A stretch of DNA of 64,000 nt from Rubrivirga sp. SAORIC476 (GTDB lineage: Bacteria > Bacteroidota > Rhodothermia > Rhodothermales > Rubricoccaceae): the NCBI RefSeq assembly GCF_002283555.1, contig NZ_MVOI01000006.1:248001-312000 (forward strand), given 5' to 3'. The notes below the pieces were generated by a model. The model worked only from the letters and a program-made list of their open reading frames with translations. It was not told the DNA's origin and did no database searches. A program made the position numbers and the translations under genes. This document shows positions 30,316 through 30,444 of the stretch, in pieces (within the stretch, counting starts at the first letter, position 1; each line of letters starts with the position of its first letter).

Positions 30316-30349
30316 AGAAAACCCCCTCCGGCCCAGGCCAGAAGGGGTT
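30316..30349 (-). terminator. Attenuator terminator (segments 3:4) before metY
   Basis: Transcribed leftward, AACCCCTTCTGG (from 30349) pairs with the segment ending at 30320 (CCGGAGGGGGTT). This gives a 12-bp stem with two G-U pairs and a 6-nt loop, ending in TTTT then CTCG. It lies 49 bp before the metY start. The 5' arm, 30336-30344 (CTTCTGGCC), is also complementary to upstream 30397-30405 (GGCCAGGAG), making terminator and antiterminator mutually exclusive. Confidence 0.75.
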
Positions 30350-30372
30350 GCAGACGCGAGTGCCGGTGGTGT

Positions 30373-30444
30373 CTACCGGCGCCCGAGGCGCGACCGCTCC
30401 TGGCCCGAACGGGCCATACACATAATCATCCCCATGCAGCGCAT
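30373..30444 (-). CDS. Methionine/cysteine-rich leader peptide
   Basis: A 23-codon ORF from ATG 30444 to TAG 30373. It begins MRCMGMIMCM (five Met and two Cys in the first ten codons) and then becomes an ordinary Arg/Ser/Gly tail. It lies 105 bp upstream of metY. The last Met codon (30415-30417) abuts segment 1 of the first hairpin, so a ribosome slowed on the Met/Cys codons would mask that segment. This is the layout of amino-acid-biosynthesis leader peptides such as trpL. Function is inferred from position and composition. Confidence 0.7.
   Translation of the reverse strand: MRCMGMIMCMARSGQERSRLGRR
30401..30416 (-). promoter_or_regulatory. Attenuator hairpin 1:2 (anti-antiterminator)
   Basis: On the minus strand TGGCCC (30416-30411), loop GTTC, GGGCCA (30406-30401) form a perfect 6-bp hairpin. 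Its right arm is part of segment 2 (30397-30405), which can instead pair with 30336-30344 (nine contiguous pairs, one or two G-U at the edge). Stalling on the leader codons would block 1:2 and allow 2:3 (read-through); free translation would allow 1:2 and 3:4 (termination). Confidence 0.65.

Follow-up and report, generated by a model that had tools for sequence, protein, structure and literature searches.

A candidate leader-peptide attenuator reading methionine and cysteine upstream of metY in Rubrivirga and its relatives

SAM riboswitches and MetJ are the textbook regulators of methionine genes. Leader-peptide attenuation is likewise already well known: in trpL and in the his, thr, leu, ilv and phe attenuators, a short open reading frame (ORF) rich in the sensed residues, with its sensed codons abutting segment 1, is combined with RNA segments that pair as 1:2, 2:3 and 3:4 and with an intrinsic terminator. 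The leader analysed here, upstream of metY, shares all of these features; it differs in that it would sense Met and Cys together, in that its stop codon lies further past segment 2, and in its metY target, its phylum and its unrelated sequence. Mixed Met and Cys codons are also found in the Streptomyces lividans metL leader peptide (..ARCMCRRMCAF), which similarly stands before methionine genes (metNIQ) but precedes a transporter, is leaderless and has no typical terminator described (PMC8079986). Leaders with Cys codons only, and with different target genes, are uORFC-8-2 before cysS in Rhodobacterales (PMC8632094) and the cys leader peptides of Mycobacterium and Propionibacterium, of which the mycobacterial ones are without intrinsic terminators (PMC1262725); ribosome-mediated attenuation has been proposed for all of them. 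No conserved RNA element was found for the Met operons of Actinobacteria (PMC1262725). In related Rhodothermales the SAM-I riboswitch (S-box, RF00162) takes this position before metY and, like the leader, has a terminator at its end, but it binds SAM directly and has no ORF; in one relative (G007) and in Bacteroidota the two occur in series, with SAM-I upstream of the leader ORF. In the openly accessible literature, with relevance judged from title and abstract, no pertinent study linking leader peptides to O-acetylhomoserine sulfhydrylase was found, and Met/Cys sensing at metY, its breadth and its tandem arrangement with SAM-I are, provisionally, without precedent in the literature searched.

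The metY leader and operon in Rubrivirga

The window, by which we mean the whole 64,000-nucleotide stretch of Rubrivirga sp. SAORIC476 that was analysed, carries a presumed methionine operon:

28951–30267, minus strand: metY, encoding homocysteine synthase (O-acetylhomoserine sulfhydrylase), which scores above the cut-off of NCBIfam TIGR01326 (E 2e-203)
28791–28864, minus strand: extra tRNA-Cys(GCA) gene, lying after metY and before metX; present in five of the six leader-bearing operons
27642–28772, minus strand: metX, homoserine O-acetyltransferase; NCBIfam PRK00175, above cut-off; start codon predicted
26542–27645, minus strand: homoserine dehydrogenase-type protein, encoded third in the presumed operon; its best NCBIfam match (E 7.5e-95) does not reach the equivalog cut-off

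Upstream of metY lie the elements of the putative attenuator:

30511–30542, minus strand: possible promoter, a weak sequence candidate, TTG (30542–30540), 22 nt, TACCTTG (30517–30511)
30373–30480, minus strand: leader peptide ORF, 35 codons from a probable GTG start, VTRSSHIIAPAAMRCMGMIMCMARSGQERSRLGRR; homologues in six genomes
30415–30444, minus strand: Met/Cys cluster M-R-C-M-G-M-I-M-C-M, seven Met/Cys per 10 codons; Met/Cys-dense in all six homologues
30411–30416, minus strand: segment 1, TGGCCC; shares letters with the run's final Met codon and can pair with segment 2
30397–30406, minus strand: segment 2, GGGCCAGGAG; able to pair either with segment 1 or, as an antiterminator, with segment 3
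30336–30349, minus strand: segment 3, AACCCCTTCTGGCC, the terminator 5′ arm
30316–30349, minus strand: intrinsic terminator (segments 3:4 and U-tract), 13 pairs, −23.3 kcal/mol

The original prediction described a 23-codon ORF beginning MRCMGMIMCM, and this ORF, its Met/Cys run and its coordinates can be read directly in the window (ATG 30444 to TAG 30373, MRCMGMIMCMARSGQERSRLGRR). Its start is the part that changes: the leader most likely begins 12 codons before that ATG, at GTG 30480–30478 (VTRSSHIIAPAAMRCM..., 35 codons), since G007 lacks the internal ATG and VTRS is common to five of the six homologous leaders. The run itself is far beyond chance. Only one of the 673 short ORFs in the 64-kb window has at least five Met/Cys in 10 codons, and it is the metY leader ORF, with seven. 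A search of the 4.48-Mb genome with the pattern TGYATGNNNATG, a single pattern that could miss some leaders, gave 13 sites. Of these, only the metY leader is a short ORF that lies between genes and is followed by a terminator. The ORF is enriched in codons for residues that the downstream genes, metY and metX, serve to make, and the gene product suits the proposed signal: metY makes homocysteine, the Met precursor.

Transcription of the leader may start from the candidate promoter, which resembles the Bacteroidota-type −33/−7 pattern; a similar TTGC...CACCTTG is present in G003 and G001. Upstream of this region, a GGAAGCGCTTTTTGTTT-like stretch is conserved at 30552–30568 and at the same place in L002 and L003 (three Rubrivirga genomes in all), and is a possible regulator site or upstream promoter element.

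All three proposed pairings were read directly in the sequence at the positions originally claimed. Segment 1 (30416–30411) pairs with GGGCCA at 30406–30401 and overlaps the final Met codon of the run (30417–30415), so that the codon does touch segment 1 as predicted. Alternatively, GGCCAGGAG (30405–30397) pairs with CTTCTGGCC (30344–30336) over 9 bp, including one G.U. The terminator hairpin, AACCCCTTCTGGCCTGGGCCGGAGGGGGTT (30349–30320), is followed by TTCTCGTTT; an independent scan agreed with the predicted terminator, ranking this hairpin as the strongest in a 5-kb stretch. Its U-tract (TTTT) is short in the window and longer in most relatives.

In the proposed mechanism, scarcity of either charged tRNA would stall the translating ribosome in the Met/Cys run, where it would cover segment 1; segment 2 would then pair with segment 3, the terminator would not form and the operon would be transcribed. 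When both charged tRNAs are plentiful, the ribosome would clear the run, segment 2 would be covered or re-paired with segment 1, and segment 3 would be free to pair with segment 4, ending transcription before metY. Given that the terminator is always favoured in the equilibrium fold of the complete leader RNA, antitermination would have to be kinetic, as in trp. The leader stop codon lies well past segment 2, and termination in rich conditions would therefore depend on 1:2 re-forming. When the whole sequence is folded without a ribosome, long-range GC-rich pairing competes with the leader hairpins, and the stalled-ribosome model is noisy when RNA upstream of the ribosome may fold.

The extra tRNA-Cys(GCA) is distinct from the housekeeping copy; among the leader-bearing operons only that of G007 does without it, and no tRNA-Cys was found between metY and metX in 14 SAM-I relatives or in the other-phylum loci scanned. 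If it is co-transcribed with metY, a shortage of Cys-tRNA would raise tRNA-Cys synthesis. A further tRNA-Cys lies complete within an 80-nt direct repeat (98%; 30731–30810 and 40942–41021). The roughly 10.2 kb between the two copies, which encode an SMC-like AAA protein and a DUF932 protein, have the appearance of a genomic island inserted at tRNA-Cys, immediately beside the metY promoter region; no integrase was identified.

Homologous leaders in Rhodothermales

A close metY is present in 74 of 114 genomes of the order, and a Met/Cys leader was found in six: the Rubricoccaceae G000 (the window's own, VTRSSHIIAPAAMRCMGMIMCMARSGQERSRLGRR), G001 (VTRSTYILTAPAAMCCMGMIMCCMADTGQERTRHGRR), G003 (VTRSSHIITAPAAMRCMGMMIMCCMAHTGQERSRHGRR), G004 (VTRSASVLRTSHVAMCMAMMMCGMARPGPEAARTARP) and G007 (VTRSLSISIIRPASADAIRCMAMCMMMMPTGRTGVHAVPR), and G039 from another family (MSTFAPSNTFLRAAAMQCKGMCMPCRGMEGDA). 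All six keep six to eight Met/Cys per 10 codons while the remaining peptide drifts, so that what is conserved is Met/Cys density and not residue order. In each of them, the window's included, an intrinsic terminator stands between the leader ORF and the first gene. The conservation of the ORF lends indirect support to its being transcribed and translated.

Because segment 2 is misaligned in the divergent rows of the MAFFT alignment (A1), the pairs were compared segment by segment. For each genome, the terminator 5′ arm was taken and the leader was searched for its strongest complement. In all six genomes this complement begins 9–12 nt after the run's final Met codon; in G039, two more Met/Cys codons follow. 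Changes in the three segments are matched: GGCCAGGAG with CTCCTGGCC in G003 and G001 (segment 1 TGGCC), GGCAGGA with TCCTGCC in G007 (segment 1 TGCC) and GGCATGGAGGGGG with CCCCCTCCAGCC in G039 (segment 1 TGCC). The homologues, the comparison on which the original prediction had staked itself, thus keep both the Met/Cys codons and the alternative pairing despite changes in the letters.

We then modelled the fold downstream of a ribosome placed at each codon. In all six leaders, 2:3 is present as long as the ribosome stalls no further than the last Met codon, and largely disappears once it stands 9–12 nt beyond; as modelled, this relation between ribosome position and 2:3 pairing is the geometry that attenuation requires. 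A mutually exclusive 2:3 antiterminator freed by stalling at the sensed codons was accordingly recovered computationally in six of six genomes, with a shuffle control that was partly significant. With the conserved position and complementarity of segment 2, the six leaders support the trpL-like logic first proposed. We consider it highly likely, as judged from the sequences, that charged Met-tRNA and Cys-tRNA are sensed here by a ribosome-mediated transcription attenuator of the trp type, with metY-(tRNA-Cys)-metX-hom under its control; leader translation very probably decides whether transcription continues into metY.

Met/Cys leaders before metY in other phyla

Leaders were sought within 350 nt upstream of 79 metY loci from a genome collection, which are the nearest relatives of the window's metY and not a random sample (two of them repeat G001 and G007). 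At least five Met/Cys in 10 codons occurred at 44 of the 79, compared with 8 of 1,834 control windows from the same loci, and at least six occurred at 28, compared with none of the 1,834. Leader-bearing loci span Actinomycetota, Pseudomonadota, Acidobacteriota, Gemmatimonadota and Bacteroidota, although the contig names of metagenome-assembled genomes (MAGs) may mislabel a few. By class, 25 loci have a leader and a strong intrinsic terminator without SAM-I, 18 a leader with SAM-I, 18 SAM-I alone, 17 neither and one a leader alone. The leader-plus-terminator class is mainly from Acidimicrobiia (MRNVTSTRMMCMATYEPCGFDV, MNVAFTREMMCMAMTQPCRPHA), with MAGs from Pseudomonadota, Acidobacteriota and Gemmatimonadota. 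The attenuator reading is supported, and Met/Cys leaders prove to be common before metY in many phyla, not a local oddity.

In Acidimicrobiia, segment 2 is formed by the Pro-Cys-Gly/Arg codons that follow the run, and segments 2, 3 and 4 show a coordinated change at one shared position (G.C.G to A.U.A/G). About one event probably accounts for this covariation, and a slide control (−2 columns) gave a similar covariation score, though not a similar pairing score. In 26 modelled loci, the terminator 5′ arm stays paired when the ribosome stalls inside the run, and is less paired when the ribosome is at the stop codon. Sequestration of the 5′ arm at the last run codon averaged 0.66, compared with 0.43 in shuffles (30 loci); single-locus shuffle tests gave p≤0.05 in 12 of the 30, and because these loci are related the pooled test does not yield a probability.

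The leaders of Bacteroidota are rich in Cys codons, come after SAM-I and are mostly without a clear intrinsic terminator. At nine of these loci (L078, L082, L087, L092, L098, L100, L102, L106 and L109) the order is SAM-I, Cys-rich leader ORF, a conserved post-ORF element and metY. The element, CAGCAACAA...CTGCCANGTGACAGG, stands in place of a clear terminator, had no Rfam match in the loci scanned, and its CAGCAACAA looks complementary to the Cys codons.

The scarcity of terminators in Bacteroidota, as in the mycobacterial cys leaders (PMC1262725), indicates that metY leader peptides can act in other ways, and the leader might instead control Rho-dependent termination or metY translation while the hairpin merely ends an upstream transcript. 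We think this improbable for the window: here and in several other phyla, strong intrinsic terminators directly follow the leader outside Bacteroidota and their 5′ arm is the antiterminator target, and between the upstream tRNA-Cys and metY there is no protein gene that needs a terminator. Even less credible is a functional Met/Cys-rich peptide, for example one binding metals or active in redox, beside incidental hairpins. Small Cys/Met-rich peptides can bind metals and the ORF is conserved in six genomes, but that conservation extends only to density, and the residues after the run (GQER in Rubrivirga, PCG/PCR in Acidimicrobiia) track the RNA pairing.

SAM-I riboswitches and the origin of the leader

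SAM-I stands at the same place in relatives and a clade without it needs some control, yet an uncharacterised metabolite riboswitch (such as a SAM-binding RNA) governing the terminator beside a coincidental ORF is very unlikely, given the extent of the Met/Cys run, the lack of any Rfam family in the window leader and of any RF00162 match in the window or its genome (as the original prediction had it, no SAM aptamer), and the absence from the leaders of a conserved aptamer-like core beyond the attenuator pairs. RF00162 is present in 45 of 60 relatives, and all of the nearest Rhodothermales metY loci scanned that have no leader carry SAM-I upstream. In G007, a SAM-I aptamer scoring 75 bits comes first, with a terminator of its own (ACCCTCTCGATTGCTCCGAGAGGGTTTTTT), followed by the Met/Cys leader, a second terminator and metY; read from its sequence, this arrangement is two sensors in series, SAM-I and a putative leader attenuator.

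In the metY tree, the leader-bearing Rubricoccaceae fall outside other Rhodothermales, and a tree uniting them with the rest was not rejected (p-AU 0.216). The leader may have been imported together with metY or may have replaced SAM-I in place. The G039 metY (L005), with leader and tRNA-Cys, is 86% identical to the window's, and the other two members of its family examined are without it, which suggests possible lateral transfer.

An attenuator reading Met-tRNA and Cys-tRNA before metY in many phyla would add a widespread and directly testable mode of control to genes at which a SAM riboswitch might be expected. We judge it reasonably likely that Met/Cys attenuation is a major control of metY, and so of direct sulfhydrylation, in at least six phyla, interchangeable with SAM-I and sometimes placed behind it, in a gate that would read SAM, Met-tRNA and Cys-tRNA; in Rubrivirga relatives the attenuation would also govern the extra tRNA-Cys gene in the operon. 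The tandems of G007 and Bacteroidota would combine two unrelated RNA sensors, and provide a natural setting in which to study how one sensor takes the place of the other.
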